From contig JAAYLX010000025.1 in assembly GCA_012521705.1 (NCBI GenBank), positions 1 to 64,000 on the forward strand: a stretch of 64,000 nt of DNA, written 5' to 3'. Below, piece by piece: positions 5,950 through 27,941 of the stretch (position 1 is its first letter; each line of letters begins with the position of its first letter). Under the pieces are notes generated by a model. It was not told the DNA's origin, did not search any database, and saw only the letters and a list, made by a program, of their open reading frames with translations. The translations under genes were made by a program, and so were the position numbers. This DNA is from Clostridiaceae bacterium. GTDB taxonomy: Bacteria; Bacillota; Clostridia; DSM-8532.

Positions 5950-6075
5950 CTGCCCGAAATATTCCCTGAGGAAGTCCAATAGTCCCAATTCAAAAAACTT
6001 ATTAGCGGAAAAACAGCCGCAGGGCCAATAAAATCAAGGCTTTGAGTACAATTGCGTGTTAGTAAAAATGCATAA

Positions 6076-7119
6076 GTGAAATCCCGCACAAAGGGCGAAC
6101 TTATGGAAATCGCCGTCGCAGGATCCAGAAAGCTTATCCCGATGTTATATAAGGAAGGGCTTTTTGACGGTGTGATTTCAATGGGCGGAGTTCAAAACAC
6201 GTTTGTAGCCGTAAGCGGCATGAAAGAATTGCCCATAGGAGTTCCCAAAGTAATGCTTTCAACAGTTGCAAGCGGTAACAGAGTTTTTGACACCATAGTC
6301 GGAACCAGTGACATTGTGGTTATTCCATCCATCGCAGACCTGGCAGGGGTAAATACCATCACCAAAAGCGTTATAAGCAGCGCTGCGTCATGTGTTATAG
6401 GTATGGTTGAACATGCCGGCAGGACATTGACAAAAAGCGATCACGTTATTGTAGGAACCACGCTGATGGGCATAACCAATGACGGCGTTTGCAGCGCCAT
6501 TAACCACCTTGTGTCCCTGGGCGTTGAAACAATCGGATTCCATTCCACAGGTACCGGCGGAAAGGCAATGGAAGAGCTTGTGGCAAAGGGAACTATAAAT
6601 GCAGTGATGGATCTGACAATTCATGAAATCACCTCGGAATATTTTGGCGGTGGCTTTTCTTATTCACCTTACAGTCGACTTGGAAATCTGTGCAAATCGG
6701 GGATACCCCTCCTGGTTTCTCCCGGAGGACTGGACTTTGTGGACTTTCCGTTAAACAATATGCCAAAAGACATAGATAAAAGAAAATATATTGCCCACAA
6801 TAATGAACTCGCTCATATAAAAATCCTTAAACACGAGGCCATTGATGTAGCAAAGATTACGGCCGAAAGATTAAATCTCAGTGTCAATGAAGTAACTCTC
6901 CTTATTCCTACAAACGGGTTCAGAAAAAACACAAGGCCGGGAGAAGCCCTTTATGACAGGGAAGTAGACGACGCAATAATAGATACGCTTCTTAAGTACA
7001 TCACAAATCCCAATGTAAAAATTAAATATGTTGATTGCAACCTTAATGAAAAAGAATTCGGTATAGCCGCAGCAAATGAAATGTTTGAGATTTTGAAACG
7101 CTTTAATATGATTCCTTGA
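6076..7119 (+). CDS. Tm-1-like ATP-binding (UPF0261) protein, N-terminally truncated
   Basis: 347 residues from GTG 6076, or 338 from ATG 6103, which has AAAGGG at suitable spacing. The sequence aligns from memory with UPF0261/Tm-1 proteins (motifs STVASG, GTSDI, IGMVEHAG, GTTLMG, GFHSTGTGG, SPGG, NGF). The family normally has about 75 more N-terminal residues, beginning with the first Rossmann strand (GTLDTKG motif). Upstream of 6076 the frame has stops at 6043 and 6073, so that part is missing. Biochemical function in bacteria is poorly defined; plant Tm-1 binds ATP. It is first in the RLP operon (28 bp before the RLP), so a sugar-acid role is inferred. It may be non-functional. Confidence 0.75.
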   Translation: MKSRTKGELMEIAVAGSRKLIPMLYKEGLFDGVISMGGVQNTFVAVSGMKELPIGVPKVMLSTVASGNRVFDTIVGTSDIVVIPSIADLAGVNTITKSVISSAASCVIGMVEHAGRTLTKSDHVIVGTTLMGITNDGVCSAINHLVSLGVETIGFHSTGTGGKAMEELVAKGTINAVMDLTIHEITSEYFGGGFSYSPYSRLGNLCKSGIPLLVSPGGLDFVDFPLNNMPKDIDKRKYIAHNNELAHIKILKHEAIDVAKITAERLNLSVNEVTLLIPTNGFRKNTRPGEALYDREVDDAIIDTLLKYITNPNVKIKYVDCNLNEKEFGIAAANEMFEILKRFNMIP

Positions 7120-7147
7120 CTTATGCTTCATACAGGGAAGTGATTTA

Positions 7148-8398
7148 ATGCTCAATTTTTTGAATTATCCATACAGCCGTCCTGAAGAATTGGATGGGGA
7201 CCATTTAATTGCTACATATCTTGTCTACGGCACTGACTTTGGCAATATCTTTAAAAAAGCAGGCAATTTCGCCATCGGACAGACAATAGGAACATGGGTT
7301 AAGATTCCCGGTGTAACACAGCACATGATAGAGAGTTACCAGGGGCGCGTAGTATCACTCAATCTGATTCAATCAGGTGAAGAGAATGTAGCAGTTTTGA
7401 GGCTCGCATTCCCCATGGCCAATTTCGCAGGCAACTTCGCGATAATGATGACAGCTCTGGTAGGGAATGATGTATCAACAGCCCTAAGAACCAAATTAAT
7501 TGATATAGAGTTTTCAGGCAACGCGATAAAATCCTTTAAAGGACCTTCAAAATCAATAGAGGATTTAAGAAAACTAACAGGTGCATATAACCGTCCGATT
7601 ATACTCAATATGATAAAACCATGCACGGGATTCAGCCCCGAAGAGGGAGCAAAACTCTTTTATGAAGTGGCTCTGGGCGGTGTGGATGTCATAAAGGACG
7701 ATGAGCTTTTTGGAAACACTGATTACAGCCATGTGGCAGACCGTGTAAGGTGTTACACCGAAGCAGCGAAAAAGGCAAGTGAAATTACAGGTAAAGAGAC
7801 ATTGTACCTTGTAAATATAACCGACAGTCCGGCGAAGATGAAAGATAACGCAAAAGCTGCAATAGAGGCAGGAGCAAAGGGATGTCTCATAAACTTTGTG
7901 GCGACCGGAATAGACGCTCTTAAAGAGATTTGCGAAGAATTTGGGGACAAGCTTTTCATTATGGCACACTATGCCGGTGTAGGTATATTGAACTGGCAAA
8001 AGGGCGGTATCGCAAATCCGGTTTACATAGGAATACTTCCGAGACTTGCAGGAGCCCATGCCATAATGACAATGTTCTCAGACGGAAGAGATGCGGAATT
8101 AAAGTATGACTTTATAAAAACAGTGCAGGCACAAAGAATGCCGATGGGGCATATTAAGCCTGTTGTGACAACAGTGGGAGGGGGAATAACACCTCTTCAC
8201 CTGCCGGGAATATTTGAAGACTTAGGCCCCGGTGTAATAGTGGGTATAGGAGGCGCCATCCAGGGTCATCCCGGGGGCACCACCTCAGGAGCAAGGGCGG
8301 TCATGTGTGCGGTCGATGCTGTGTCAAAGGGTATCTCCCTTGACGATGCGGCACAGAACTGCGCAGATTTAAAAACAGCCATAGATTGTTGGAGATAA
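7148..8398 (+). CDS. RuBisCO-like protein (RLP, OiaX-type decarboxylase candidate)
   Basis: 416 residues, full length for the family. The large-subunit TIM barrel is recognisable by IKPCTGFSPEE (Lys157, equivalent to RuBisCO Lys175) and GGVDVIKDDE (Lys183, Asp185, Glu186, the carbamylation and Mg site). AHYAG follows (His274), then the C-terminal phosphate-binding glycines (GGGI, GIGGAIQGHPGG). It lacks other features of true RuBisCO and is not expected to fix CO2. Characterised RLPs with this kind of neighbourhood decarboxylate 3-oxo-isoapionate-4-phosphate to L-erythrulose-1-phosphate. The next two genes encode exactly the isomerase families that consume that product. The substrate assignment is inference. 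AGGGAAGTGA precedes ATG 7148. Confidence 0.87.
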   Translation: MLNFLNYPYSRPEELDGDHLIATYLVYGTDFGNIFKKAGNFAIGQTIGTWVKIPGVTQHMIESYQGRVVSLNLIQSGEENVAVLRLAFPMANFAGNFAIMMTALVGNDVSTALRTKLIDIEFSGNAIKSFKGPSKSIEDLRKLTGAYNRPIILNMIKPCTGFSPEEGAKLFYEVALGGVDVIKDDELFGNTDYSHVADRVRCYTEAAKKASEITGKETLYLVNITDSPAKMKDNAKAAIEAGAKGCLINFVATGIDALKEICEEFGDKLFIMAHYAGVGILNWQKGGIANPVYIGILPRLAGAHAIMTMFSDGRDAELKYDFIKTVQAQRMPMGHIKPVVTTVGGGITPLHLPGIFEDLGPGVIVGIGGAIQGHPGGTTSGARAVMCAVDAVSKGISLDDAAQNCADLKTAIDCWR

Positions 8399-8425
8399 GA
8401 AAGATATATTAGGGGGGTATCAAAT

Positions 8426-8890
8426 ATGAGAGGAAAACCAATTGTAATAGGCTGTGACAATGCAGCGGTAACTTTGAAAAAAACCATTATTGACTTTCTG
8501 AGATCAAAAGGGGTTACCGTGGAGGATGTCGGAGTAGACAGTGAAGATGATAAAACCGATTATCCTTATGTGGCAGCCAGGGTCTGCGAGGAGATTATTG
8601 CCTCGGACTACAAAAAAGACGGAATCCTGCTCTGCGGTACAGGTATTGGTATGGCGATGACCGCCAATAAGTTCAAAGGAATAAGGGCTGCGGTATGCCA
8701 TGACAGTTTCTCTGCTGAGCGTTCAATCCTCAGTAATGACGGAAACGTTCTGTGTATGGGCGCCCGCGTCATAGGACCGGAGTTGGCTAAAAAAATCGTC
8801 GGTGAATGGATCAACCTCGAGTTTGTAGATGGCAGGTCCACACCCAAAGTAAATGCCATGAAAAGTATAGAAGCGCAAAATCTTCGGTAA
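8426..8890 (+). CDS. RpiB/LacAB-family sugar-phosphate isomerase (DerI-like)
   Basis: 154 residues, typical of RpiB/LacAB. The catalytic Cys70 lies in the CGTGIGM motif, and CHD (His92) and NVLCMGARVIG are present. The canonical SDHAG motif near the N-terminus reads CDNAA (Asp11-Asn12), so the usual His is Asn. That argues against ordinary ribose-5-phosphate isomerase. Homologues called DerI/EryI interconvert D-erythrulose-4-phosphate and D-erythrose-4-phosphate, and pairing with the TIM homologue next door fits that. It lies 27 bp after the RLP with a strong AGGGGGG-type ribosome site. Confidence 0.83.
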   Translation: MRGKPIVIGCDNAAVTLKKTIIDFLRSKGVTVEDVGVDSEDDKTDYPYVAARVCEEIIASDYKKDGILLCGTGIGMAMTANKFKGIRAAVCHDSFSAERSILSNDGNVLCMGARVIGPELAKKIVGEWINLEFVDGRSTPKVNAMKSIEAQNLR

Positions 8891-8900
8891 GCGGGGCGGG

Positions 8901-9701
8901 ATGGATATGATCAGCAAGCTTTACATAGGTACCAATACCAAAATGTACAAAACCATTGCAGACACAGTATCTTATCTTGAAGAACTAAAAAAATTGACAG
9001 CGGATATTGACCGCAATCTTATAGAGCTTTTTGTAATCCCATCTTTTACTTCGTTGAGCAGGGCTAAAGAACTTGTCTCAGACGGTAGTATAAAGTTAGG
9101 CGCGCAAAATATGTGCTGGGAGGACCAGGGCCAGTTTACAGGGGAAATCTCCCCGGTCATGTTGAAGGAAATCGGCATTGACATAATTGAACTCGGCCAT
9201 TCCGAACGGAGGCATATCTTTGGAGAAACCGATGAACAACTCAACAAAAAAGTAATTGCAGCCCTGAAACATGGCTTTACACCTCTTCTTTGCATAGGGG
9301 AAACGTTGGAACAAAAACAGCTTAGAATAAGTGACGAATGTCTTTCAATTCAGTTAAAAGCAGGTCTTAATGGAATTTCAGAGTCAGATGCAAGAAAAAT
9401 CTGGGTGGCCTACGAACCCGTATGGGCAATAGGCGTAAACGGCATTCCCGCATCCCCTGAGTACGCAGATGAAAAACAGGGAGTCATTAAAAAGGTTCTT
9501 TATGATCTGTTCGGTGAAACAGGCAGTGATATTCCTGTTTTGTACGGAGGAAGCGTAAATCCCGGAAATGCATGCGAATTAATCAAGCAGCCAAACATTG
9601 ACGGATTATTTATCGGAAGAAGCGCCTGGGATGCAGGCAATTTCAACAGCATCATCAGAGACGTTCTGCCATTATTCCTAAGTAAGAAAAACTTGAATTG
9701 A
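8901..9701 (+). CDS. Triosephosphate-isomerase homologue (LerI-like tetrulose-phosphate isomerase)
   Basis: 266 residues with TIM-barrel catalytic residues conserved: Asn12/Lys14 in GTNTKMYK, His100 in ELGHSERR, Glu172 in AYEPVWAIG, and the phosphate-binding YGGSVNPGN. The first motif differs from the glycolytic GNWKMN. The gene sits inside a sugar-uptake operon, so it is probably not the housekeeping enzyme. LerI/EryH homologues convert L-erythrulose-1-phosphate to D-erythrulose-4-phosphate, which bridges the RLP and the RpiB-like enzyme here. It begins 10 bp after the preceding stop. Confidence 0.85.
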   Translation: MDMISKLYIGTNTKMYKTIADTVSYLEELKKLTADIDRNLIELFVIPSFTSLSRAKELVSDGSIKLGAQNMCWEDQGQFTGEISPVMLKEIGIDIIELGHSERRHIFGETDEQLNKKVIAALKHGFTPLLCIGETLEQKQLRISDECLSIQLKAGLNGISESDARKIWVAYEPVWAIGVNGIPASPEYADEKQGVIKKVLYDLFGETGSDIPVLYGGSVNPGNACELIKQPNIDGLFIGRSAWDAGNFNSIIRDVLPLFLSKKNLN

Positions 9702-9766
9702 AAACAGCCCGGATTTGAGGGTGAGTGCAGAAAAAAGCTGAAGAGGCTGTAGAACAGGAGATTAAT

Positions 9767-10366
9767 ATGGTTGATGTTAAAAAAATTAAAGATGAGATGC
9801 TATTAGCTGCAAAAAGAGCATATACAAGGGGCATACAGACAGGTAACGGGGGAAACTTCAGCGCCCGTATTCCCGGCAAGGACCTTATGCTGGTAAAATC
9901 CAGCGGTGGCTCTTTCATAGACGCCGACCATAACAGCTTGCTGGTAACAGATTTTGACGGAAAACTGGTGGAGGGGGAAGGAAAGCCCACCCGCGAAGCT
10001 CTTCTCCACGGATTTATCTATAAAATTGCACCCCAGGTCAACGGAATAATGCATTGCCATTCTCCCTGGTCCATTGGCTGGGCCTCCACAAGAAAGAATC
10101 TGGAGAATGTAACCCATCATCTTAAGCTCAAGTTTGATTGTCCTATAGTGACATTGGATATTAATGCAGGCGTAGTGCCTGAAGAAGAGTTCTACAAAGT
10201 TGAGGAGATTTTCAAAAAATATCCCAAACTGCCGGCATTTCTGCTTGTCGATCACGGTGTTGTGGCAGTCGGGAAGGACATCATCGATGCCGAACATAAC
10301 GCAGAATTGATTGAAGAATCTGCTCAGGTCGCCTTTCTGAAAGCATTGGCTTCAAGTTTCCGCTAA
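9767..10366 (+). CDS. Class II aldolase/adducin-family protein
   Basis: 199 residues from ATG 9767, placed six bases after CAGGAG; the frame is open to 9725. The Zn ligands of the fuculose-1-phosphate aldolase/OtnC fold are intact: Glu77, His96-Cys-His98 and His163 (VDHGVV). Members cleave sugar-1-phosphates or decarboxylate 3-oxo-tetronate-4-phosphate (OtnC). In this operon it could give a second exit from a 3-oxo-sugar-acid phosphate, or yield dihydroxyacetone phosphate plus glycolaldehyde from a tetrulose or pentulose phosphate. I cannot choose between these from sequence. Confidence 0.83.
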   Translation: MVDVKKIKDEMLLAAKRAYTRGIQTGNGGNFSARIPGKDLMLVKSSGGSFIDADHNSLLVTDFDGKLVEGEGKPTREALLHGFIYKIAPQVNGIMHCHSPWSIGWASTRKNLENVTHHLKLKFDCPIVTLDINAGVVPEEEFYKVEEIFKKYPKLPAFLLVDHGVVAVGKDIIDAEHNAELIEESAQVAFLKALASSFR

Positions 10367-10402
10367 TGGAAAGTGGATTTCAGAAAAGTAAATAATACGG
10401 TT

Positions 10403-10431
10403 TTGGTTCCTATATTTATTCCTTTTATATA
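10403..10431 (+). promoter_or_regulatory. Putative sigma-A promoter for the first sugar transporter
   Basis: TTGGTT (10403-10408) and TATATA (10426-10431) are separated by 17 bases in the 207-bp gap between the aldolase and the solute-binding protein. This suggests the transporter genes have their own promoter in addition to read-through. Confidence 0.45.
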
Positions 10432-10524
10432 TAGGGTTTAGTAAATTATTTTCTTCAAGGAAGAGCACAGGACTAATAATCGGTGCCAATATAAATCGAA
10501 AATGTGTTGGTCCGGTTTTAGATA

Positions 10525-10545
10525 GATATTTGTAAATCAAATATC
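10525..10545. repeat. Inverted repeat upstream of the solute-binding protein gene
   Basis: GATATTTG and CAAATATC form a perfect 8-bp inverted repeat with loop TAAAT, 28 bases before the ATG. It is a candidate operator for the GntR protein encoded at 16349, or an mRNA-stabilising hairpin. Confidence 0.4.
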
Positions 10546-10573
10546 AAAAATCAAAATTAATGGAGGGAATGAA

Positions 10574-11737
10574 ATGAAAAAAGTATTCCTAATGGCCATC
10601 TCTTTGATACTGGTAGTTGCAGTGCTGGTTGGTTGCGGACAATCCGCGACAAATAAGCCAAGCGAATCCACTGCTCCTTCGACATCATCAGAGCCTGCAA
10701 AATCTGAGGAACCAAAACCATCTGAAAAACCTTTGGCAAACTCTTATTGGGGAGATGCTCCGGCATCTGAAGCAGACTCAGCTCCGGTTCCCATCGACAA
10801 TCTGCCGACAGAAGGAATAGGAATTCAGATTTCTACAAACGTAAAAGCAAACGAGAAATATAAGATTGCTATTATCGTTAAGAACACAACCAACCCATTC
10901 CTCCTCAAATCCATAGCAGGTACAGAAAAAGCTGCTAAAGACATGGGATTTGAATGCATTTCTCTTGCTCCTGCAAGACAGGACAGCCTTGAAGATCAGG
11001 TTAAGATTATTGAAGATGCTATTCAGCAGGGCGTAGACGGAATCATCCTCCATCCGATCGATTCAAACGGAATCATGCCTGCAATCAGAAAAGCAGAAGA
11101 AGCAAATATTCCTGTTGCATGTATCGGAACTCCTGCAGCAAAGCAGACCTTCTTAAGAACAGGTGTTGACTACAAAGCAACCGGCTTACTCATTACACAT
11201 CATGTTGCTGAACAGATAGGTAAAAAAGGTAAGATCATAATTCTTGAAGGACCTCCGGCTGCACAGAACGCACAGGAAAGACTTGCTGGTATTAAGGAAG
11301 CACTTCAGAGCTATCCTGAAATCGAAGTAGTTGCATCACAGACAACCAACTTCAAGAGAACAGAAGGTATGCAGGTAACAGAAAACCTCCTGCAGAAATA
11401 CAAAGATATCGATGCTATTATCGCATGTAACGACGAGAGCGCATTGGGTGCTATCCAGGCTCTTAAGGCAGCAGGCCTTGCAGGAAAAGTTGTAATAGGA
11501 AGCTTCGACGGTAACGAAGACGGAAGCTCAGCTATAAAGAATGGTGATATGCATGTTACTTACAACACCGACCCATTCGGTTCAACATATCTTGCTGCAG
11601 CTTACATAGTACAGTACCTGAATGAAGGAACAATGCCTCCCAAATACTTTGTTCCCTTCCCTTCAGAACTCCAGAATCCGCTTATCACAGGCGCAAACAT
11701 CGACCAATACATGAGTGATATTGCATGGTGGAGATAA
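10574..11737 (+). CDS. Sugar ABC transporter solute-binding lipoprotein (RbsB type)
   Basis: 387 residues. A lipoprotein signal ends in LVGC (lipobox Cys near 21), followed by a Ser/Pro/Glu-rich linker (about 25-60) and a Peripla_BP_4 fold. Typical motifs are IAIIVKNTTNPFL, GVDGIILHPIDS, CNDESALGAIQALKAAG and GSFDG. It captures a monosaccharide-like ligand at the cell surface and passes it to the 11822-15286 proteins. GGAGGG precedes the ATG. The ligand is not deducible; linkage to the RLP operon suggests a branched sugar, sugar acid or lactone. Position first in the transporter operon fits the usual excess of binding protein. Confidence 0.9.
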   Translation: MKKVFLMAISLILVVAVLVGCGQSATNKPSESTAPSTSSEPAKSEEPKPSEKPLANSYWGDAPASEADSAPVPIDNLPTEGIGIQISTNVKANEKYKIAIIVKNTTNPFLLKSIAGTEKAAKDMGFECISLAPARQDSLEDQVKIIEDAIQQGVDGIILHPIDSNGIMPAIRKAEEANIPVACIGTPAAKQTFLRTGVDYKATGLLITHHVAEQIGKKGKIIILEGPPAAQNAQERLAGIKEALQSYPEIEVVASQTTNFKRTEGMQVTENLLQKYKDIDAIIACNDESALGAIQALKAAGLAGKVVIGSFDGNEDGSSAIKNGDMHVTYNTDPFGSTYLAAAYIVQYLNEGTMPPKYFVPFPSELQNPLITGANIDQYMSDIAWWR

Positions 11738-11821
11738 TCTGTTGTTCATAGTCCCTGGGGGGAAATAGTTCGAGACAGCAGAAATCTTTAAGGGACACAA
11801 GTTAGCATAGAGGTGAGAAAA

Positions 11822-13336
11822 ATGGATAATGTTATTCTGACAACGCGTGCAATAACCAAAGAGTTTCCGGGCGTTAAGGCGTTGGACAGCGTAGACTTTG
11901 ATTTAAGAAGCGGTGAAGTACATATTTTGGTCGGTGAAAACGGGGCCGGAAAAAGTACTTTGTCCAAGGTCATCTTAGGTGCGTATATTCCCGAGGGCGG
12001 AGAAATATATCTCGGCGATGAGAAAGTATCTTTCAAATCAACAAGGGATGCGCTTCAAAGAGGTATAGCCGCTGTGTATCAGGAATTCACGCTGATTCCA
12101 TACCTGAATGTCGCGCAGAACATCTTTTTCAACAGGGAACCCAGAAACAAATACGGGCTTATTGACCATAAAAAAATGGAAAGGGACGCAAAAAAGCTTC
12201 TTGAGTCACTGAACTGTGATTACATTAATGTCAAGCTCCCCACCAAGTTTCTGAGTGTTGCAGAGCAGCAAATGGTCGAGATAGCCAAAGCTCTGTCATT
12301 CAATCCGCGCATCATGGTATTTGATGAGCCTACGGCGACGCTGTCCGAACGTGAAGTGGAATCTTTGTTCAGGCGCATTAAGAAACTCAAGGAATCAGGA
12401 ATAGGAATTATTTATGTTTCTCACCGTATGCAGGAATTCAAACATATTGGAGATCGCATTACCGTGCTGAGAGACGGTAAGAAGATTGCCACCGTCAATA
12501 TTGATGAAGTGAACGACATGGAACTTGTCAATATGATGGTAGGACGAGATATTTCACAGGTCTATCACAGATCTGAAAACCACTTTACCGGGGAAGTGTT
12601 AAGAACCGAAAAGCTCTCTGACAAAAAAGGAAGAGTTAAAGAAGTGGACATTACTCTTAACAAGGGTGAAATAGTTGGTATTGCCGGGCTGGTCGGTGCC
12701 GGAAGAACAGAACTCGCAAGACTCATATTCGGCATCGACCCCATTGGCGGGGGGAAACTGTTTATCAAGGGAAAAGAGATCAAAGACAATTCCCCGGTAA
12801 AGATTGTAAAGGAAGGAGTCGGCATGGTTTGTGAAGACCGTAAACGTATGGGTCTCGCATTGAACCATTCTGTAATGTGGAACACAGTTGCGGTCAGCCT
12901 TAAATCATTCTTCCCGAAACTACTGATTTCTCATAAAAAGATTGTTGAGATAGTTACTGATTATGTAAAACAGTTGCGCGTAGCCACACCGGATATCTAC
13001 AGAGCTTGCAAGAACCTTAGCGGGGGTAATCAGCAAAAAGTTGTATTGGCAAAATGGCTTAGTGCAAACACCGACATTATGATTTTTGACGAACCTACAA
13101 GAGGTATTGACGTAGGCGCGAAAATGGAAATTTACGCTATGATGGACAAGTTGGCGACTGAAGGGAAGTCGATCCTGATGATTTCATCCGAGCTACCGGA
13201 AGTAATAGGAATGAGTGACAGAATATACATCATGAACAATGGAAGAATTGTTGGCGAGTGCAAGAGAGGCGAACTTAGCGCCGATCAGATAGGCGCGCTG
13301 ATGCTCGGGGTAGGGGGTGATTCATGTGCAAGCTAA
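11822..13336 (+). CDS. Sugar ABC transporter ATP-binding protein (RbsA type)
   Basis: 504 residues from ATG 11822 with GAGGTGAGA upstream. Two tandem ABC domains are present: the N-terminal one has Walker A GENGAGKST, and the C-terminal one has the usual degenerate GLVGAGRTE. LSGGNQQKVVLAKWL and FDEPTRGIDVG mark the second signature and Walker B. It energises the permeases at 13326 and 14306. The stop codon overlaps the following permease start, indicating translational coupling. Confidence 0.93.
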   Translation: MDNVILTTRAITKEFPGVKALDSVDFDLRSGEVHILVGENGAGKSTLSKVILGAYIPEGGEIYLGDEKVSFKSTRDALQRGIAAVYQEFTLIPYLNVAQNIFFNREPRNKYGLIDHKKMERDAKKLLESLNCDYINVKLPTKFLSVAEQQMVEIAKALSFNPRIMVFDEPTATLSEREVESLFRRIKKLKESGIGIIYVSHRMQEFKHIGDRITVLRDGKKIATVNIDEVNDMELVNMMVGRDISQVYHRSENHFTGEVLRTEKLSDKKGRVKEVDITLNKGEIVGIAGLVGAGRTELARLIFGIDPIGGGKLFIKGKEIKDNSPVKIVKEGVGMVCEDRKRMGLALNHSVMWNTVAVSLKSFFPKLLISHKKIVEIVTDYVKQLRVATPDIYRACKNLSGGNQQKVVLAKWLSANTDIMIFDEPTRGIDVGAKMEIYAMMDKLATEGKSILMISSELPEVIGMSDRIYIMNNGRIVGECKRGELSADQIGALMLGVGGDSCAS

Positions 13337-14309
13337 TACCAGAGCCAAGAGTTTTATTACTGATTTTGTGAGAAAAATTCCTCCAGTACTTTGGATCACC
13401 CTTTTACTCATTACGATATTCAGCATGGCATCGGACCAATATCTAAAGTTCAGCAATTTCACAAACATCCTTGTTCAATCGGTGCCTCTGATGCTGGTGG
13501 CATTTGCTCAAACTTTGATAGTACTGACACAGGGTACGGATCTGTCGCTGGGAGCCCAGGTAAGTTTTGTAACGGTACTGTGGATATACCTGACGAAAGC
13601 AGGCTTACCTATTTACATTGCAGCAATTATTTCAGTTGTGGCATCTATGTTTGTCGGTTCCATCAACGGATTGATTGTATCAAAGGGTAAAATTCCACCC
13701 TTTATCGCGACCCTTGGCATGCAGAATATTTTAAACAGTATATCAATGTTATTGACAGCAGGAGCTTCCATTTATATCTATCATCCGCTCTTCTACGATG
13801 TAACCAAAGCCAAAATAATCGGAATACCTCTTGTTGTATGGATTACAGCGTTCATGTTCATGGTGACATGGGTAGTGCTTTACAAGACTAAATTGGGAGC
13901 GCAGATATTTGGTCTGGGTGGTAACCAGGAAGCTCTGACACTTGCAGGTATTAACCTGGTAAAACCATCAATAAAGATTTACGCATTTGCCGGTTTATTA
14001 ACCAGTGTCAGCGGACTTATTACAACATGCAGACTTGAGTCCGGCCAGCCTGTTGTGGGAGCTGGATGGGAATTTGAAGCCGTTGCTGCCACACTTCTTG
14101 GAGGTACTTCCCTCCGTGAAGGAAAGGGAGGTATTGGAGGAACTATCTTTGGGGTGCTTCTGATTACGATACTCAAAAATGGTCTTAATATCTCTGGTGT
14201 ACCGTCACTTTATCAAAATGCAATTATAGGTTTGATCATACTTATGTCCATTGTTATTGATGCATTGGCACGACGCATGAAAAGTTATGAGGAGGGAGCG
14301 AAACTATGA
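13326..14309 (+). CDS. Sugar ABC transporter permease 1 (RbsC type)
   Basis: About 327 residues from GTG 13326 (GGGGGTGA upstream); the frame also allows GTG 13317. Eight to ten hydrophobic helices are visible, with the BPD_transp_2 family motifs TQGTDLSLGAQ, FIATLGMQN and GGTSLREGKGGIGGT. It overlaps the ATPase gene upstream and the second permease downstream (ATGA at 14306). It forms part of a heteromeric membrane channel. Confidence 0.9.
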   Translation: MQANTRAKSFITDFVRKIPPVLWITLLLITIFSMASDQYLKFSNFTNILVQSVPLMLVAFAQTLIVLTQGTDLSLGAQVSFVTVLWIYLTKAGLPIYIAAIISVVASMFVGSINGLIVSKGKIPPFIATLGMQNILNSISMLLTAGASIYIYHPLFYDVTKAKIIGIPLVVWITAFMFMVTWVVLYKTKLGAQIFGLGGNQEALTLAGINLVKPSIKIYAFAGLLTSVSGLITTCRLESGQPVVGAGWEFEAVAATLLGGTSLREGKGGIGGTIFGVLLITILKNGLNISGVPSLYQNAIIGLIILMSIVIDALARRMKSYEEGAKL

Positions 14310-15286
14310 AAAAATATATGGAAACACTCAGGCGCTCCCAATCATTCTACAGTTATATTGGACTGGCGCTTGTATTCATTATCGCCTCGGTTATCGTAAA
14401 AGAGTTTCTTACATTTGACAATATTATCACGGTACTGCGGCAGGGTAGCATACTCTTAATTCTGAGCACCGGACTGACAGCGGTTATATTGACCGGAAAC
14501 ATGGATCTTTCTGTTGGTGCCTCCTCCGGCCTTGTCGGATGTATATGTGCCCAGCTTTTGAGGGCAGGACTTCCGATTCCACTGGTATTTTTGATTGGCT
14601 TGCTTGCAGGCGCTCTGGTTGGAGTCTTCAACGGATTTTTGGTGGGCATTGTAAAATTGCCGTCATTTGTCGCTACATACGGTACAAACTGGGTGGTTGC
14701 AGGATTGTCAATCATCATAATGCACGGGGACATCATATATGGACTTCCGAAAGGGTTCACCTGGTTCGGGACAGGATATGTTGGCCCAATACCTTTTATA
14801 ATAATATTCGCGCTCGTAATTGTAATTATCGCTTATATACTGCTCCAGAAGACAACTTTAGGAAGGGATATTTACGCTTACGGCTCAAATAAGGATGCGG
14901 CTCTTTTCTCGGCCGTGCCCATAAAGAAAACCCTGTTTTCAGCCTTTATCATGTCGGGTCTGACAGCTGCCATCGCTGGAATGTTAATGACAGCGCGCTT
15001 AAATGCCGCGGATGCAACCATGGGTGATACATACGGACTCCAAACCGTTGCGGCGGTTGTGGTCGGCGGAACATCAATGCTCGGCGGTGAAGGCGGAATT
15101 ACAGGTACTGTAATCGGAGCCATGCTTCTGACGATTATTGTAAATGTTATGAATCTTTTGGGAATCTCATCATTTGCGCAGCCCATGGTAGTCGGATTTG
15201 TAATAGTCGTTATGGTTCTGTTCGACTCGTATTCAAGAAGAAAACAGAACACTGTCGTCAGGAGAAAGCAGCCCCAAACAAACTAA
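14306..15286 (+). CDS. Sugar ABC transporter permease 2 (RbsC type)
   Basis: 326 residues, BPD_transp_2 family. The motifs TGNMDLSVGASSG, LPSFVATYGTNW and GGTSMLGGEGGITGT mark the periplasmic loop and EAA-like region. Together with 13326-14309 it makes a two-permease system, whereas the second transporter in this window has only one permease gene. The start overlaps the preceding stop by four bases. Confidence 0.9.
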   Translation: MKKYMETLRRSQSFYSYIGLALVFIIASVIVKEFLTFDNIITVLRQGSILLILSTGLTAVILTGNMDLSVGASSGLVGCICAQLLRAGLPIPLVFLIGLLAGALVGVFNGFLVGIVKLPSFVATYGTNWVVAGLSIIIMHGDIIYGLPKGFTWFGTGYVGPIPFIIIFALVIVIIAYILLQKTTLGRDIYAYGSNKDAALFSAVPIKKTLFSAFIMSGLTAAIAGMLMTARLNAADATMGDTYGLQTVAAVVVGGTSMLGGEGGITGTVIGAMLLTIIVNVMNLLGISSFAQPMVVGFVIVVMVLFDSYSRRKQNTVVRRKQPQTN

Positions 15287-15377
15287 TCCGGTAATTCAAT
15301 TTATATAAAATTATTTAATCTATTTGCATAATTAAGTTTTTAAAGCACAACAAATTAACATAAAAGGAGACATGCTT

Positions 15378-16181
15378 ATGAAAAACCTTACAGTAAGACC
15401 TATCAACACAGGGTATGTGCCAACTCATCCTTTGCAGTATCATTACCACTTCTCCTGTGCGCCTTACCTGAAGGATGTTCCCGATAAAAAAATTCCTCTT
15501 CCTGTCTTCACTTTCCTGGTAGAGGGCGGGGATAAGCTTCTTTTGGTAGACACAGGTATGTCATGGACTGAGAGGGCAAACAAATACCATCATCCCGGCT
15601 CATGGCAGGAACCGGGCCAGGCTATACATGAGCAACTTGAGAAATTAGGCTATAAGCCTGAGGATATTGACTTCGTGGTATTCACACATCTTCACTGGGA
15701 TCATATGTTCTATGTGGAGAAGTTCACAAATGCCACACTTATTGCTCATGAAAGAGAATGGGAATTTGCCAACAACCCGATTCCTCTGTATTACAAATCT
15801 TATGAACATCCTGCCCTCGGAATAACACGCCCCTTTGAGGGACTCAAATTCGAGACCGTCAGAGGCGAAACTGAGATTATGCCCGGCGTAAGAGTATTCG
15901 AGACCTTCGGTCACTCACCAGGACATATGTCAGTAGAAATTGACACCAAAGAAGGCAGCTATATTTGCGCAGGCGACTCAATCTTTGTAAAAGGCAATCT
16001 GAAGGAAATACCCGAGATCCACTATAATATTTCACCACCGGGACGATTCTACAATATCGTTGAGGCGTGGAGGAGCATAGAGATCCAGAAAGAAAGGGCA
16101 AAGAGTCCTGATTTCTTACTGCTGTGCCACGATGCCGACCTCTTGGAGCTTGTAAAGACCAAACCTGTATTCGGTGTGTAA
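15378..16181 (+). CDS. Metallo-beta-lactamase-fold hydrolase (lactonase-like)
   Basis: 267 residues from ATG 15378 (AAGGAGA at 15364-15370; ATG 15372 is also in frame). The dinuclear metal motif reads HLHWDH, followed by GHSPGHMS and a late CHD motif, as in AiiA/AttM-type N-acyl-homoserine lactonases. Within a sugar-acid operon a sugar lactonase role (opening an aldonolactone before oxidation) is more plausible than quorum quenching. That is inference. It lies 91 bp after the permeases in an AT-rich gap. Confidence 0.78.
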   Translation: MKNLTVRPINTGYVPTHPLQYHYHFSCAPYLKDVPDKKIPLPVFTFLVEGGDKLLLVDTGMSWTERANKYHHPGSWQEPGQAIHEQLEKLGYKPEDIDFVVFTHLHWDHMFYVEKFTNATLIAHEREWEFANNPIPLYYKSYEHPALGITRPFEGLKFETVRGETEIMPGVRVFETFGHSPGHMSVEIDTKEGSYICAGDSIFVKGNLKEIPEIHYNISPPGRFYNIVEAWRSIEIQKERAKSPDFLLLCHDADLLELVKTKPVFGV

Positions 16182-16287
16182 CCGCTGCTTGAGAAGTTTC
16201 CTTAAGGCAGATAAAAGCAGGTTCAAATAGAGTTTGCAGGCTGGTAAGCTAATGCTGTGGTAAGGGGTTTACATGCATAACGGGATA

Positions 16288-16316
16288 TTGTATCCTATTA
16301 ATGCTGATGCTATAAT
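16288..16316 (+). promoter_or_regulatory. Putative sigma-A promoter of the GntR gene
   Basis: TTGTAT (16288-16293), a 17-base spacer and a perfect TATAAT (16311-16316) lie 33 bases before the GntR ATG. Confidence 0.55.
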
Positions 16317-16348
16317 TAACATGGAAAAATTATACGGAGTTGATAAGG

Positions 16349-17056
16349 ATGGTTAATTCAGGTCAGGCACCTGCAAAAATTAAATATAAACGTATGCCGG
16401 AACTTGTCATGGACCAGTTGATGGACTGGATAATGGACGGCACAATTTCCATGGGGGATAAGCTTGTTGCGGAAGATCTGGCCTCGAAAATGGGTGTCAG
16501 CAGAATGCCTGTACGTGAAGCATTAAAAAATATGGAGAAATCCGGTATAGTTGAATCCATCCCTTATGTAGGCACACGTGTAGTTGAGCTTACCATGGCA
16601 GATGTAAAGCAGATTTACATCATGAGAAAAGCCCTTGAGCCTATAGCAGCTTACTATGCCTGCAAAAACATTACCGATGAGAGAATTGAAACTCTTATTG
16701 CAGTCCAGGAACAGCTTGAGAGGGTTCTCTTTGAAGAGAATCCCGACGGAAAGGAAATTTTCGTCCTTAACAGGGAGTTCCATTTCACAATCTATGAGAC
16801 ATCGCAGATGAGACACCTTGTAAATTCAATATCCAACCTGTGGGACCATCTTGCGTTCTTTAAGCTCATCTATGGACGTAAATATGTCACAGACAAGGAT
16901 AGCGCCAAGAGAGTTGTAAGAGACCACAGGTCATTTATTGAGCTCCTCAAAAACAGGGATTGCAAAGGGCTTCAGGATGCTGTCCACGAATCTCTGGACA
17001 GACTTGTTTCGGGATTGAACGAAAGTATCGAGGATTATATTCACCCTAACAAATAA
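16349..17056 (+). CDS. GntR/FadR-family transcriptional regulator
   Basis: 235 residues from ATG 16349 (GGAG nine bases upstream; the frame continues to TTG 16340). The N-terminal winged helix (about 10-75, with the MGVSRMPVREALKNME recognition region) is joined to a C-terminal all-helical FCD domain (about 85-225). FCD domains often bind sugar-acid ligands with a metal held by Asp/His residues. It probably represses this catabolic locus and is released by a pathway intermediate. The inverted repeat at 10525-10545 is one possible operator. Confidence 0.87.
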   Translation: MVNSGQAPAKIKYKRMPELVMDQLMDWIMDGTISMGDKLVAEDLASKMGVSRMPVREALKNMEKSGIVESIPYVGTRVVELTMADVKQIYIMRKALEPIAAYYACKNITDERIETLIAVQEQLERVLFEENPDGKEIFVLNREFHFTIYETSQMRHLVNSISNLWDHLAFFKLIYGRKYVTDKDSAKRVVRDHRSFIELLKNRDCKGLQDAVHESLDRLVSGLNESIEDYIHPNK

Positions 17057-17099
17057 TAATTAGGGAAATTGGTGGGCTCGCCAAGAAAGGGATGAAACT

Positions 17100-17951
17100 A
17101 TGAAGGTTACAATTTTGCTGGAGAATACCAGCTTGTATAGCAAATACTACAACTCCGAACACGGTTTTTCCGCCTGGATAGAAGATGAAGATGTGAAGGT
17201 TCTTTTGGACTGCGGCTTTTCCGACAAATTCATTCAGAATGCCGAAGCTATGGGAATAGACCTCCGTCAGGCTGATTACGTTATTCTGTCCCATGGACAC
17301 TGGGACCATACAGGAGGGCTTAAATACCTTATCAAATACTACAAGGATAAAGCAATGGCCAGAAAGCCAATCCTTCTGTACACCAGTGATGATATTTTCC
17401 TGAAGAGATATGAGTTCAACTGGAATACCCAGGTCGGTCTTGATGTGGACAAGGAAGTCATGGAACAATATTTTGACGTAAGGGTTACCCCTGAACCACT
17501 TTGGCTTACAAAGAACCTGTGCTACATGGGTCTGACTGAAAGAACCAACGATTATGAGCATATCCATCCCCAGACTTCTCAGCAGCTTCGCAATGGCGTA
17601 TGGTGCGATGATGTTGTGGATGAAGATACCCAGCTTTGCTATCGCCATAAGAATGGAAAGGAAGTAAGCGTGGTTGCTACATGTGCTCACTACGGAATTT
17701 GCAATATTATGGAGTATGCAAAGAAACTTACCGGAGCACAGCAGATACATACATATCTTGGTGGTTCACATCTGCGTATTGATGAAGTGCCCCAGTCACA
17801 GGTCGATAAAACATGTGAGTATGTAAAAGCTCAGAATATCAAGAATTTCTATATCTGCCACGATACCGACCTGCACTGCAAGAAGGCACTGTGGAATGCA
17901 TGTCCCGGCAGCAAGGAAGCAGGTACCGGCCTTGTGCTTGAGTTAGACTAA
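17100..17951 (+). CDS. Metallo-beta-lactamase-fold protein, DHPPS-like subgroup
   Basis: 283 residues. The HGHWDH motif, TCAHYGICN, GGSHL and the terminal CHD motif match the MBL subgroup annotated as 7,8-dihydropterin-6-methyl-4-aminobenzene-phosphate synthase-like. That group has few tested functions in bacteria. It is co-oriented with and 43 bp after the GntR gene, so probably in its transcription unit. It differs in architecture from the lactonase-like enzyme at 15378, so the locus carries two unrelated MBL enzymes. The substrate is unknown. Confidence 0.75.
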   Translation: MKVTILLENTSLYSKYYNSEHGFSAWIEDEDVKVLLDCGFSDKFIQNAEAMGIDLRQADYVILSHGHWDHTGGLKYLIKYYKDKAMARKPILLYTSDDIFLKRYEFNWNTQVGLDVDKEVMEQYFDVRVTPEPLWLTKNLCYMGLTERTNDYEHIHPQTSQQLRNGVWCDDVVDEDTQLCYRHKNGKEVSVVATCAHYGICNIMEYAKKLTGAQQIHTYLGGSHLRIDEVPQSQVDKTCEYVKAQNIKNFYICHDTDLHCKKALWNACPGSKEAGTGLVLELD

Positions 17952-18002
17952 TAAATCTTTTTCAAAAGTTCCTGTTCACAATTAATCTAAAAATAAGATG
18001 TA

Positions 18003-18034
18003 AAATCTGCTCCTCATGCGGGAGCAGATTTTTT
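18003..18034 (+). terminator. Rho-independent terminator
   Basis: AAATCTGCTCC pairs with GGAGCAGATTT, followed by a T run. It ends the GntR-MBL transcription unit. Confidence 0.92.
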
Positions 18035-18300
18035 GTTGCAATGCGAAAGTGGAATCTGCATAGTTTTCACGTCCTCGGCATAGGGTAGCATTAATGTGCA
18101 AACGGCTCTGCCTTTGAACAAAACAATAGCTTTTCTAAGCAGGGGACGCGAAAAGATTTTGATGCTTGCACTTCTTTGCACTTTCTTAGACTTCTTCAGA
18201 CTTCTTTGGCAGCTGCTTATTAGGTGAGTTATTAACTCCATTCACATCAATGTCATGATTGCAAATTAGCTTCAGTGTTAAGGATCGGACGTCCAAATCC
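18035..18300. other. Intergenic region with inverted copies of a 16-bp motif
   Basis: There is no credible gene here. TTTTCACGTCCTCGGC at 18064-18079 is the exact reverse complement of GCCGAGGACGTGAAAA found at 34968-34983. A degenerate forward copy (AGGGGACGCGAAAAG) lies at 18141-18155. The two copies here could pair as a long-range hairpin. A GGACGTCC palindrome is near 18288-18295, just before the promoter of the response regulator. Confidence 0.5.
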
Positions 18301-18328
18301 TTTACAAGGAAGTTTTTTACTATATAAT
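18301..18328 (+). promoter_or_regulatory. Putative sigma-A promoter of the two-component operon
   Basis: TTTACA (18301-18306), a 16-base spacer and TATAAT (18323-18328) lie 40 bases before the response-regulator ATG. Confidence 0.55.
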
Positions 18329-18368
18329 AATAATGAGACAAACAAAACATCAGGCTTTGGGTGATAAT

Positions 18369-19988
18369 ATGGAAAAGGTCTTAATCGTAGATGACGAGCC
18401 GAAGGTATGCCAGCTTATATGTGAGCTTATAGACTGGAAAGCTTTTGACATGGAAATCGCAGGGACTGCCCACGATGGTTTCAATGCCCTGAACCTTGTC
18501 ATTGAACTCGAGCCTGACATTATTATCACCGACATCCGTATGCCTGGTTATGACGGCCTCGAGCTGATAAACAGGATAAAAGAATCCGGATCGGATGCTG
18601 AAATAATCATTATCAGCGGATACAGCCATTTCGAATATGCACAGAGAGCGATAAAATACGGTATTGAGGAGTATTTATTAAAGCCCATTAAAAAAGACGA
18701 ACTTGAAAGAACACTTCTGAAACTCCACGACAAGATAAAGCTGAAAAAAGAGAAACTGTCAAGGGAAGAGCAGATTAATCTCAGACTTCAAAAGGACATG
18801 AAAAAACTCAGGTCCAGTTTCATTACCGAGATAAGATCGGGAGAAATAACTTTTGAAAGTGATGACGAGGAAGCCAACATAGAGTATATCAACGAAAACT
18901 ACCACTTCGATCTTAAGCCGGGCAGCTTTCAGGTAGCCGCGGTGAAAATTGATTGCGATGAGGGATATGAAAGAAGCATCAATATTCTGATGCCCAAATG
19001 CATAGAGGTACTGGAAACCAGAATGAAACCTCTTTGCTATGATATGGAGATTTTCACCGAAGACAGAACCATCTATTGTCTTCTCAACTTCGACAGAAAG
19101 TCTTCAAAACCTATCAGAAAGAGTTTAAAGTCGGCTCTGGATGAGCTGTTAATTCAGAGCGCCCCCTTTGAATGCGTACATATCACTCTCTGCGTGGGAA
19201 GTGTCATAAATGACATCAAAGATCTCAGAGATTGTTTCAAAACCACTGATTTCGCCGTAAAAGAAAGGCTTTTGACCGGGACCGGAAAACTCATTGAGGA
19301 TGTACCCTACCGGGAAAATCCGGTATTGATGAATTCACTTCTTTCACAAATAAACAAATCCATGTCGTCTGCGTTGGAAATACTGGACGCTGACGCTGTC
19401 TCAGATATTATTGACTCGGTAAAGCTTAAGATTATATCAGGACAGACCTTTACAGGCAATGAAATATTCCAGCTTGCAGAGCAGATCGTAAACATCTATC
19501 TTATGTCCATGCGAAACAACAATATCGATGTTCCGGGGAACGACCAACTGATAAATGATTTCAAAAGCTACGCTGACAGATGCGCTACCATACACGAGCT
19601 TTTCGGAACGCTTAACAGGACAATCAGCGCATCTTTGCAGGCCATTATTGAAAAAAAGAGACAGGACGATACCCGGCCAATACGCCTGGCAAAGAATTAT
19701 ATCCAGCAGAACTACATGAATCCGGTTACTCTTGAAGAGGTAAGTGAGCTTGTGGGATTTAATTCTTCCTATTTCAGCACTTTGTTTAAAAAAGAGACAG
19801 GTATAAACTTTGTCCAGTACCTCTCTGAAATCCGGATGGAAAAGGCCAAGGAGCTGTTGAAGGAAACCAACCTAAGCGTGGCCGCCATCTGTGAGAAAGT
19901 AGGGTACTCGGATCTCAAACATTTTACCAAGTCATTCAAAAAGGCTACCGGGATTAAGCCCAATGAATACAGGAAACTATATTCTTAA
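18369..19988 (+). CDS. YesN-type response regulator with AraC DNA-binding domain
   Basis: About 539 residues from ATG 18369; ATG 18333 is in frame but has no ribosome site. The receiver domain (1-125) has Asp9/Asp8-type acidic residues and phospho-acceptor Asp55 (TDIRMPGYDG). A long helical linker region with a GGDEF-like-sized insert of unknown fold (about 150-420) follows. The AraC tandem helix-turn-helix domain is at the C-terminus (LEEVSELVGFNSSYFS and AAICEKVGYSDLKHFTKSF). It is the partner of the kinase 15 bp downstream and probably activates the second transporter through the phased repeats at 21041-21097. Confidence 0.9.
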   Translation: MEKVLIVDDEPKVCQLICELIDWKAFDMEIAGTAHDGFNALNLVIELEPDIIITDIRMPGYDGLELINRIKESGSDAEIIIISGYSHFEYAQRAIKYGIEEYLLKPIKKDELERTLLKLHDKIKLKKEKLSREEQINLRLQKDMKKLRSSFITEIRSGEITFESDDEEANIEYINENYHFDLKPGSFQVAAVKIDCDEGYERSINILMPKCIEVLETRMKPLCYDMEIFTEDRTIYCLLNFDRKSSKPIRKSLKSALDELLIQSAPFECVHITLCVGSVINDIKDLRDCFKTTDFAVKERLLTGTGKLIEDVPYRENPVLMNSLLSQINKSMSSALEILDADAVSDIIDSVKLKIISGQTFTGNEIFQLAEQIVNIYLMSMRNNNIDVPGNDQLINDFKSYADRCATIHELFGTLNRTISASLQAIIEKKRQDDTRPIRLAKNYIQQNYMNPVTLEEVSELVGFNSSYFSTLFKKETGINFVQYLSEIRMEKAKELLKETNLSVAAICEKVGYSDLKHFTKSFKKATGIKPNEYRKLYS

Positions 19989-20003
19989 CACAGGAGCAGG
20001 AAG

Positions 20004-21014
20004 ATGATACGCAGGGGCAAGGACTATATTTCATACAGAATAATGTTGATGACAATAATTCTATGTGTTTGCACATCTGTACTGCTCATCGTGCTCGGTA
20101 TTATCGCAATTGATACAAAAAAGTATGGTTTTGTTTTTCTGATTTTTTCCATTGTTTATGTCCTCATCGGGTATGCCTCATACAGATGGATTTACATACC
20201 GTATAAGGAAAACATGAAAGTGTACAGGCTCTTTATTGACGGTTATACTTTGAGCGGAATTTTCGAACAGCGCATGTTTCTGAGCCCTGAACAGGAACAG
20301 GTAATAAACCGTTTCAAAGAAGAAATGAATATTAATGCACTTATAAACACATCCAAAAAGCAGGCAGAGTACCTTGCCCTGCAAAATCAGATAAATCCCC
20401 ATTTCCTGTATAACACTTTGGAGGGCATAAGGGGTGAAGCCCTGCATGCCGGGCTTTTCAATGTCGCAAAGATGACCGAGGCCCTGGCAACCTTTTTCCG
20501 TTATACCATTTCCAATCTGGAACACCTTGTTACCCTTGAGGATGAACTCAACAATATTGAAAACTACTATATTATCCAGCAGTACCGCTTCGAGGACAGG
20601 CTCAATCTCAGGATCCTGTCGGACCCAGGGGACGAGAAAAAGATGCTGAAATACAAGCTTCCTAAACTTACGCTCCAGCCAATAGTTGAAAACGCCATCT
20701 ATCACGGTATTGAGCGGAAAATTGGGAAGGGGAATATACTTATTAAGCTGGAATCCACAAAAAGCAGGCTTATTATAACTGTTTCAGATGACGGGCTTGG
20801 AATGGAACCGGATAAAGTCAATGAACTGAACAGAAGGCTTAACAGCTTTTCCCTGGATTATATCCAGTCCAAAGAAAACAAGGGCGGTATTGCCCTTATC
20901 AATGTTAATCGAAGGATAAAACTATTATTTGGAGAAGAATACGGAATCAGCATATACAGTACCCTTAATGCAGGGACCGATGTGGAAATCACGCTTCCTA
21001 TCATTACAAAATAA
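20004..21014 (+). CDS. YesM/LytS-type sensor histidine kinase without an extracellular sensor domain
   Basis: 336 residues. Two closely spaced membrane helices (about 12-32 and 40-60) leave almost no external loop. A His_kinase domain follows with NPHFLYNTLEG (phospho-acceptor His), then an HATPase_c domain with PIVENAIYHG (N box) and SDDGLGM (G box). Typical YesM proteins have a 200-residue extracellular cache domain; its absence suggests that sensing occurs in the membrane or through a partner such as a solute-binding protein. GGAGCAGGAAG upstream supports the start. Confidence 0.9.
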   Translation: MIRRGKDYISYRIMLMTIILCVCTSVLLIVLGIIAIDTKKYGFVFLIFSIVYVLIGYASYRWIYIPYKENMKVYRLFIDGYTLSGIFEQRMFLSPEQEQVINRFKEEMNINALINTSKKQAEYLALQNQINPHFLYNTLEGIRGEALHAGLFNVAKMTEALATFFRYTISNLEHLVTLEDELNNIENYYIIQQYRFEDRLNLRILSDPGDEKKMLKYKLPKLTLQPIVENAIYHGIERKIGKGNILIKLESTKSRLIITVSDDGLGMEPDKVNELNRRLNSFSLDYIQSKENKGGIALINVNRRIKLLFGEEYGISIYSTLNAGTDVEITLPIITK

Positions 21015-21040
21015 TTGTCCACATCACACAACCAGTTCAT

Positions 21041-21135
21041 CCAAAAAGAGCCCCTCTTTTACCAAAACATCCAAAAATATTCCCCATAACTCCAAAACCG
21101 CTCCCCTTAAAACCCGGTTGATCCGGTCATATAAT
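21041..21135 (+). promoter_or_regulatory. Second-transporter promoter with helically phased CCAAAA repeats
   Basis: CCAAAA occurs at 21041, 21062, 21071 and 21092, i.e. spacings of 21, 9 and 21 bp. Three copies are followed by CCCC about ten bases on (21051, 21082, 21103). The array ends next to a weak -35 (TTAAAA, 21107-21112) that is 17 bp from a perfect TATAAT (21130-21135). This is the geometry expected for an activator of the AraC type binding direct repeats on one DNA face. The adjacent response regulator is the obvious candidate. Confidence 0.6.
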
Positions 21136-21185
21136 GGTACTGTAAGCATAAACTGATTTTGAGCATATGGGTAAGGGTTAGAGCT

Positions 21186-22703: not shown

Positions 22704-22709
22704 TAGTAT

Positions 22710-23747: not shown

Positions 23748-23759
23748 ACTTCCGGTAGT

Positions 23760-23786: not shown

Positions 23787-23818
23787 TCAATACAAAATTA
23801 ATTTAAGGAGGATGTTAA

Positions 23819-24808: not shown

Positions 24809-24820
24809 TACCGTCAATTT

Positions 24821-27923: not shown

Positions 27924-27941
27924 TTGTATATGGAGGCTGCC

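Follow-up and report, generated by a model that had tools for sequence, protein, structure and literature searches.

A possible sugar-acid route to D-erythrose 4-phosphate in an inserted clostridial gene block carrying an unnamed subfamily of RuBisCO-like proteins

L-Erythrulose 1-phosphate is the product of the decarboxylation catalysed by OiaX, a RuBisCO-like protein (RLP). It is converted via D-erythrulose 4-phosphate to D-erythrose 4-phosphate by the isomerases LerI and DerI (PMC10733421). The OiaX decarboxylation itself is credited to Carter et al. (2018; cited in PMC6302742). In the corresponding operon of Rhizobium sp. N6212 (L146) the OiaX gene is followed by genes for a four-carbon acid sugar kinase, a triosephosphate isomerase (TIM) family protein, an RpiB-family isomerase, an ApnO-type dehydrogenase and a ribose-type ATP-binding cassette (ABC) transporter. 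A related gene cassette is described here from a 64,000-nucleotide stretch of the genome of an anaerobic Clostridiaceae bacterium (GenBank assembly GCA_012521705.1, contig JAAYLX010000025.1, positions 1 to 64,000 of the forward strand), referred to below as the window. The genome (G000; 2.25 Mb, 99.8% complete) is from the same genus as the clostridial digester metagenome-assembled genome G010 and contains one RLP, three TIMs and three phosphoglycerate kinases (PGKs). The core of the cassette consists of three adjacent genes.

7148..8398, + strand: RLP of a subfamily without a name; RuBisCO_large Pfam match of 152 bits
8426..8890, + strand: RpiB-family isomerase, DerI-like; LacAB_rpiB Pfam match of 173 bits
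8901..9701, + strand: TIM-family isomerase, LerI/EryH-like; TIM Pfam match of 261 bits

All three Pfam matches are far above the cut-offs and, with the coordinates, agree with a preliminary description of this DNA that had placed the trio here. The intergenic gaps are 27 bp (RLP–RpiB) and 10 bp (RpiB–TIM), and the trio is part of a longer operon that runs from a UPF0261 gene upstream through the second of two genes for metallo-β-lactamase (MBL) fold proteins downstream. In the survey, 84,980 species genomes were scanned and the neighbourhoods of the loci found were then compared; the same genes co-occur again in other genomes, and the grouping is thus more than chance. The block is tentatively read as a catabolic cassette feeding D-erythrose 4-phosphate by a sugar-acid route in which an RLP of the unnamed subfamily takes part and UPF0261 would serve as kinase; for this reading as a whole, doubt slightly outweighs confidence.

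The isomerase pair carries the firmest assignment. The TIM-family protein shares 50% identity with the TIM of the Rhizobium OiaX operon and 49% with EryH of an erythritol cluster, but only 40% with the canonical TIM of its own genome, and it has GLFIGRSAW in common with LerI and EryH where the canonical enzyme has GGASL. These identities and the replacement of GGASL by GRSAW place it on sequence in the LerI/EryH group. An IGVNGIPA motif is also present. In its first motif, GTNTKM, which had been pointed out previously, the canonical Trp12 is replaced by Thr and Asn11 is kept; LerI and EryH have GTSFKM and GTSWKM. It was rejected as the housekeeping TIM, the canonical gene adjoining a PGK gene on contig C19. 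A third TIM-family protein of this genome (contig C56, 434-1084; L128) is strongly divergent, with 32% identity to the window TIM. The RpiB-family protein is 42% identical to DerI of the OiaX operon and 39% identical to EryI. Its motif GCDNAAV contains the Asn noted in the preliminary description, which recurs in the majority of the cassette RpiBs (GCDPN or GCDDA in some) and is not a DerI signature; the known DerI and EryI carry Ser at this position (GADSAG, AGDSAG). With the DerI model NF051858, which is named after rhizobial proteins, it scores 146 bits against a cut-off of 240, the known DerI and EryI scoring 256 and 252. The pairing of RpiB and TIM in one operon is kept across loci. The identities and the GLFIGRSAW motif support the LerI/DerI pair proposed earlier, and the two proteins probably perform the steps from L-erythrulose 1-phosphate via D-erythrulose 4-phosphate to D-erythrose 4-phosphate.

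The RLP has the RuBisCO_large domains and the KDDE site (K183–E186, intact as previously reported) and has lost RuBisCO-specific residues, which makes it a form IV (RLP) member of the RuBisCO superfamily. N123, K175, K201 (the carbamate lysine), D203, E204, H294, G381 and G403 (RuBisCO numbering) are retained. A conserved Cys replaces K177, and the second phosphate site has its R295, H327 and K334 altered or missing, a pattern consistent with a singly phosphorylated substrate; an Mg/carbamate site and a single phosphate pocket are left. The OiaX-type identity given in the preliminary description did not stand. With the OiaX model NF042437 the RLP scores 132 bits against a cut-off of 700 (nine subfamily members, 147–213 bits; positive control L146, 784.7 bits), and a common clade with OiaX was rejected in the approximately unbiased (AU) test (p-AU 1.5e-47). 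In a tree of 95 RLPs every TIM/RpiB-linked RLP falls within one 32-row clade with a support of 100 (Shimodaira–Hasegawa-like approximate likelihood-ratio test, short search), and OiaX is separated from this clade by a long, fully supported branch. Judged by sequence, the RLP belongs to a mostly Firmicutes subfamily without an NCBIfam name which holds every TIM/RpiB-linked RLP found. Its highest NCBIfam scores are those with the MtnW models (273 and 227 bits), below the cut-offs of 409 and 513.6, and the MtnW general base Lys98 is replaced by Asn in the window RLP and in all subfamily members; by these sequence marks it is not an MtnW. A single clade with MtnW was not rejected (p-AU 0.84; the free tree search had missed a better tree), so that by descent the RLP appears nearer to MtnW. 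The preliminary description had named such a placement as telling against its interpretation; the protein does fall on the MtnW side, although Lys98 is absent from it. The RLP is predicted to be a decarboxylase of a phosphorylated β-keto sugar acid, and the formation of a tetrulose phosphate by it is, on balance, somewhat the more probable outcome. The same reaction type is suggested by the OiaX decarboxylation, as the known RLP reaction that yields L-erythrulose 1-phosphate, and by the genes downstream. Another truncated relative is the RLP of G014 (L024:8920-9705), in which the sequence ahead of the MIKPC motif is missing and which has no cassette genes nearby.

Upstream of the RLP lies the gene for the candidate kinase.

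6076..7119, + strand: UPF0261 (Tm-1-like) protein, 5′-truncated, 28 bp ahead of the RLP gene

A UPF0261 gene stands directly ahead of the RLP gene in about 12 loci, among them L040–L045, L049, L057, L065, L069 and L070, with gaps of mostly 1–14 bp; the genomes represented include G010 and members of Oscillospiraceae, Christensenella, Aneurinibacillus, Erysipelotrichaceae and Solobacterium. A DUF1537 kinase is present in all five OiaX-side RLP operons examined (Rhizobium, Agrobacterium, Azospirillum, Streptomyces and Marivivens), and an FGGY kinase or a phosphotransferase system (PTS) is found at further loci of the subfamily to which the window RLP belongs. The OiaK kinase had been reported as missing from the window; no match to this DUF1537 type (PF07005) was found in the whole 99.8% complete genome either. 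When genes up to 6 kb from the RLP are counted, UPF0261 occurs alone at 32 loci, a kinase or PTS alone at 36, both at one and neither at 22. This near-exclusion of UPF0261 and FGGY, PTS or DUF1537 gives a Fisher p of 6e-9, uncorrected for relatedness; a comparison of 13 pairs that are phylogenetically independent gave none in agreement and a mean of 5.4 in opposition (median p 0.0625).

A structural model of the intact G010 UPF0261 protein (predicted local distance difference test score 89) was superposed on tomato Tm-1 (PDB entry 3wrw; Z 41.2 over 385 residues, root-mean-square deviation 4.9) and on Saro_1862 of Novosphingobium aromaticivorans (PDB entry 9mpy; Z 31.0 over 387 residues, root-mean-square deviation 8.7). 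The latter is a UPF0261 member solved with acetovanillone, and acetovanillone catabolism in N. aromaticivorans begins with the single-component kinase MarK (PMC13101465). Given the shared organism and compound, Saro_1862 is probably MarK. The near mutual exclusion with known kinases and the membership of Saro_1862 make UPF0261 a candidate kinase, and the arguments for and against its acting in place of OiaK are evenly balanced. The preliminary description had left the upstream steps as either elsewhere or novel, and it did not mention UPF0261, which is now a candidate for one of them. The fold search with UPF0261 returned no kinase fold among the matches listed, a result that is neutral for the kinase assignment; past UPF0261 proteins, the best fold matches listed are UDP-GlcNAc 2-epimerase-like Rossmann domains. 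HpeHI and AcvAB were considered as UPF0261 kinases and discarded: HpeHI is a two-component kinase resembling phosphoenolpyruvate (PEP) synthase, AcvAB is its homologue and neither is a UPF0261 protein.

UPF0261 genes were also seen in other settings. At L043 (12774-15545) a 924-residue open frame, FGGY-kinase-like in its N-terminal half and phosphomutase-like in its C-terminal half, lies beside UPF0261–RLP–AldII–AldII. A Thermus thermophilus plasmid (L149) has the order creatininase, UPF0261, class II aldolase and tripartite tricarboxylate transporter, with no RLP. At L088, L091, L092, L094, L100, L110, L113 and L119 the order is RLP, PEP-hydrolase-like protein, ComB (2-phosphosulfolactate phosphatase family), UPF0261 and PEP-hydrolase-like protein; this arrangement, in Syntrophomonas and other anaerobes, represents a putative second RLP/UPF0261 pathway that differs from the one described here.

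The remaining genes of the inserted block follow the trio.

9767..10366, + strand: class II aldolase-family protein (Pfam PF00596); start inferred from the homologue at L040
10574..11737, + strand: ribose-type (CUT2) substrate-binding lipoprotein
11813..13336, + strand: CUT2-type ABC transporter ATPase
13317..14309, + strand: ABC permease
14306..15286, + strand: ABC permease, 83% identical to its counterpart in the G010 cassette
15372..16181, + strand: MBL-fold lactonase-like hydrolase (relatives AiiA and 4-pyridoxolactonase), conserved in cassettes
16340..17056, + strand: GntR/FCD regulator, kept in several cassettes
17100..17951, + strand: second MBL-fold protein; its counterpart at the same position in G010 is 92% identical
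18333..29192, + strand: remaining inserted block with a response regulator/sensor kinase, a second CUT2 ABC transporter, a chemoreceptor and a PGK paralogue

The lactonase-like enzyme (15372-16181) and the two transporters of the preliminary description are thus present. The PGK paralogue (27924-29192), one of the three in the genome, lies near the right end of the block. The class II aldolase-family protein contains an HxH zinc motif, and its residue at the FucA/OtnC position is Glu; it reaches no NCBIfam cut-off (top model PRK06557, 105 against 251), its top PDB match is a class II aldolase, and it may have a part in the route. In the proposed pathway, the ribose-type ABC transporter would import the substrate as a sugar acid or as the corresponding lactone, the MBL-fold lactonase(s) would open the lactone ring, and UPF0261 would phosphorylate the acid with ATP. 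The RLP would then decarboxylate a β-keto acid phosphate to L-erythrulose 1-phosphate, from which the LerI-like TIM would form D-erythrulose 4-phosphate and the DerI-like RpiB D-erythrose 4-phosphate. It is possible, though we regard it as doubtful, that a UPF0261 sugar-acid kinase and a new subfamily of RLP decarboxylases together lead anaerobically from a lactone (possibly an ascorbate-type one) to D-erythrose 4-phosphate by a route that has not been described before.

Several points weigh against the proposed cassette function. None of the members of this RLP subfamily has a known activity, and by phylogeny the window RLP seems closer to MtnW, an enolase, than to OiaX. The cassette contains no oxidoreductase that would account for the source of a β-keto acid. 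With phylogeny controlled, the exclusion between UPF0261 and kinases is borderline at its median p of 0.0625; the kinases scored were those of the FGGY, PTS and DUF1537 types only, and cassette L043 carries both UPF0261 and the FGGY–phosphomutase protein. The equation of Saro_1862 with MarK is itself an inference. Most UPF0261 genes of Clostridia adjoin PEP-hydrolase-like genes and have no RLP, so that the family may not have a single function; these neighbours and the pairing with a class II aldolase in Thermus make other UPF0261 roles possible. Finally, the window's own UPF0261 is truncated, so that the pathway may be interrupted in this genome but intact in G010. This truncation is tied to the origin of the block, the boundaries of which are as follows.

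4955-5899: spoIIQ, left flank of the insertion
5950..29790: insertion of about 23.9 kb between spoIIQ and spoIIID–mbl
29865-30143: spoIIID, right flank of the insertion
30267-31298: mbl, right flank, after spoIIID

In six relatives from the genus, spoIIQ is followed within about 150–500 bp by sequence homologous to the window from about position 29780 onward (spoIIID, mbl). The block is an insertion that brought the cassette in, with its left junction inside UPF0261. Compared with the intact 414-residue homologue in G010 (locus L023, 89% identical), the window UPF0261 lacks the first ~68 residues and the promoter region; it matches PF06792 only from profile position 65, PF23189 is complete and an in-frame TAA lies just 5′ of the frame. 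D11, K13 and D47, which are invariant in an alignment of 17 UPF0261 homologues, all fall in the missing part, and the full-length two-domain form with these residues is found in the G010 copy but not in that of the window. A search across genome G000 for the missing start or another piece of UPF0261 found neither. An assembly misjoin is an unlikely cause, because the genes flanking the block adjoin each other in the six relatives. The GC content does not set the block apart as foreign, and no direct repeats or tRNA were found at its junctions. In G010 the cassette is intact and lies at a different genomic location, with most genes 79–92% identical and the regulator 71% identical.

The block in G000 could therefore be a decaying remnant: by taking away the promoter along with the beginning of UPF0261, the insertion would have left no working pathway to be expressed, which is compatible with the proposed cassette function in the intact relatives. 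The loss of the invariant N-terminal residues means that the pathway may be disabled in G000. A terminator-like stem follows spoIIQ (5924-5942), and promoter-like sites on the + strand between 5700 and 7200 lie only within coding sequence and do not exceed the number in shuffled sequences. Nevertheless, all other genes of the block are intact and 70–92% identical to those of G010, and UPF0261 has a candidate internal start (ATG at 6103) with a ribosome-site-like AAGGG; decay would need to be recent. We consider a remnant possible but not the expected state of the block.

The link to apionate made in the preliminary description has a counterpart outside the window. Contig C51 of G000 (1-2527; L177/L178) carries an ApnL-like fragment, an ApnO-family protein, an AP_endonuc_2 TIM barrel and then a CUT2 ABC transporter. 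The fragment matches the D-apionate lactonase ApnL (57 bits) and ends at the contig edge; the ApnO-family protein (PF16896, 145 bits) is 39% identical to the ApnO-type protein of the OiaX operon; and the barrel is xylose-isomerase-like, a family which we take to include OiaC. As this module and one DhaK are found in the same genome, D-apionate could be handled using the window TIM and RpiB: ApnL, ApnO and the OiaC-like protein would make L-erythrulose, a DhaK-type kinase would phosphorylate it and the window isomerases would finish the route, the RLP being an alternative or dispensable branch. The cassette and ApnO do not co-occur among relatives, however. G010 (99% complete), the closest relative with an intact cassette, has no ApnO, and G009 has ApnO and no RLP or cassette, so that ApnO was rejected as a fixed partner. 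The RLP is moreover not OiaX. The apionate link is conjectural, and D-apionate catabolism seems an unlikely function of the cassette.

The substrate left unspecified in the pathway proposed above would be named if it were an ascorbate-type lactone, such as erythroascorbate or another enediol lactone, the opening of which would yield a β-keto acid without a dehydrogenase, the RLP then playing the part of UlaD. The cassette holds lactonase-like enzymes and no oxidoreductase, and the MBL lactonase-like gene is kept in most cassettes. UlaG, the L-ascorbate-6-phosphate lactonase, is encoded in the same operon in all five Erysipelotrichaceae cassettes (592 bits, cut-off 306), which suggests a substrate of this type, but it is absent from the Clostridia cassettes. 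Such a substrate does not readily account for the stereochemistry of the product or for the need for a TIM step. In addition, the AraD and UlaF epimerases have Asp at the class II aldolase-family position occupied by Glu in the cassette protein. We therefore consider this particular scheme improbable. Least probable is an enolase role for the RLP in an MtnW-like, methionine-salvage-like route with the class II aldolase as an MtnB-like dehydratase: the tree side, the top NCBIfam scores and the class II aldolase family of MtnB would agree with it, but all MtnW models stay below cut-off, Lys98 is Asn across the subfamily, no methionine-salvage genes are adjacent and the TIM/RpiB pair would be left without explanation. 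The proposed cassette function is the most likely of these readings, and the preliminary interpretation is overall partly supported; the upstream UPF0261, the downstream class II aldolase, the 5′ truncation and the nature of the block as an insertion had been overlooked in it.

RLP genes were also met in further contexts. In Deltaproteobacteria (L075:1440-6720 and L085:5957-11224) the RLP has as neighbours a pair of PEP-hydrolase-like genes, a gene for a thiamine-diphosphate enzyme resembling acetolactate synthase or ComDE, and genes for a tripartite ATP-independent periplasmic transporter. In Chloroflexota and Firmicutes (L026, L066, L080 and L083) its neighbours encode an FGGY kinase, a class III aminotransferase and, in some cases, a ferredoxin-nitroreductase-like protein. 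RLPs of another subfamily directly follow a two-subunit transketolase (L036:3-3081 and L037:8500-11734), a pairing that recurs on an Agrobacterium plasmid.

Compared with known systems, the cassette is closest to the OiaX–OiaK–LerI–DerI–ApnO operon, with which it shares probably the end product D-erythrose 4-phosphate and an operon that combines an RLP with a LerI-like TIM, a DerI-like RpiB and an ABC transporter of the ribose type. It differs in that its RLP is from another subfamily, UPF0261 replaces the DUF1537 kinase, ApnO is absent, and one or more lactonases and a class II aldolase are added. With the erythritol EryH/EryI clusters (Roseibium, L153) it has in common the TIM and RpiB pair, which leads there from L-erythrulose 1-phosphate to D-erythrose 4-phosphate, but it has an RLP and neither an FGGY kinase nor a polyol dehydrogenase. 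Among named RLPs, MtnW, the 2,3-diketo-5-methylthiopentyl-1-phosphate enolase, comes closest in profile score and tree side; the window protein is set apart from it by its replaced catalytic lysine, its neighbouring genes and its scores. An RLP subfamily without an NCBIfam name is defined and given a testable reaction. The intact G010 UPF0261 protein has the same fold as Tm-1 and Saro_1862 over its whole length, together with the invariant residues; unlike them it is RLP-linked, and its substrate would be expected to be a small polar acid and not an aromatic ketone. UPF0261 is widespread, includes Tm-1 in plants and is uncharacterised in Pfam, and it gains a testable role as a stand-in for OiaK. 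If this is true, the ancestral function of Tm-1, which confers virus resistance in plants, would be explained by its membership of a kinase family.

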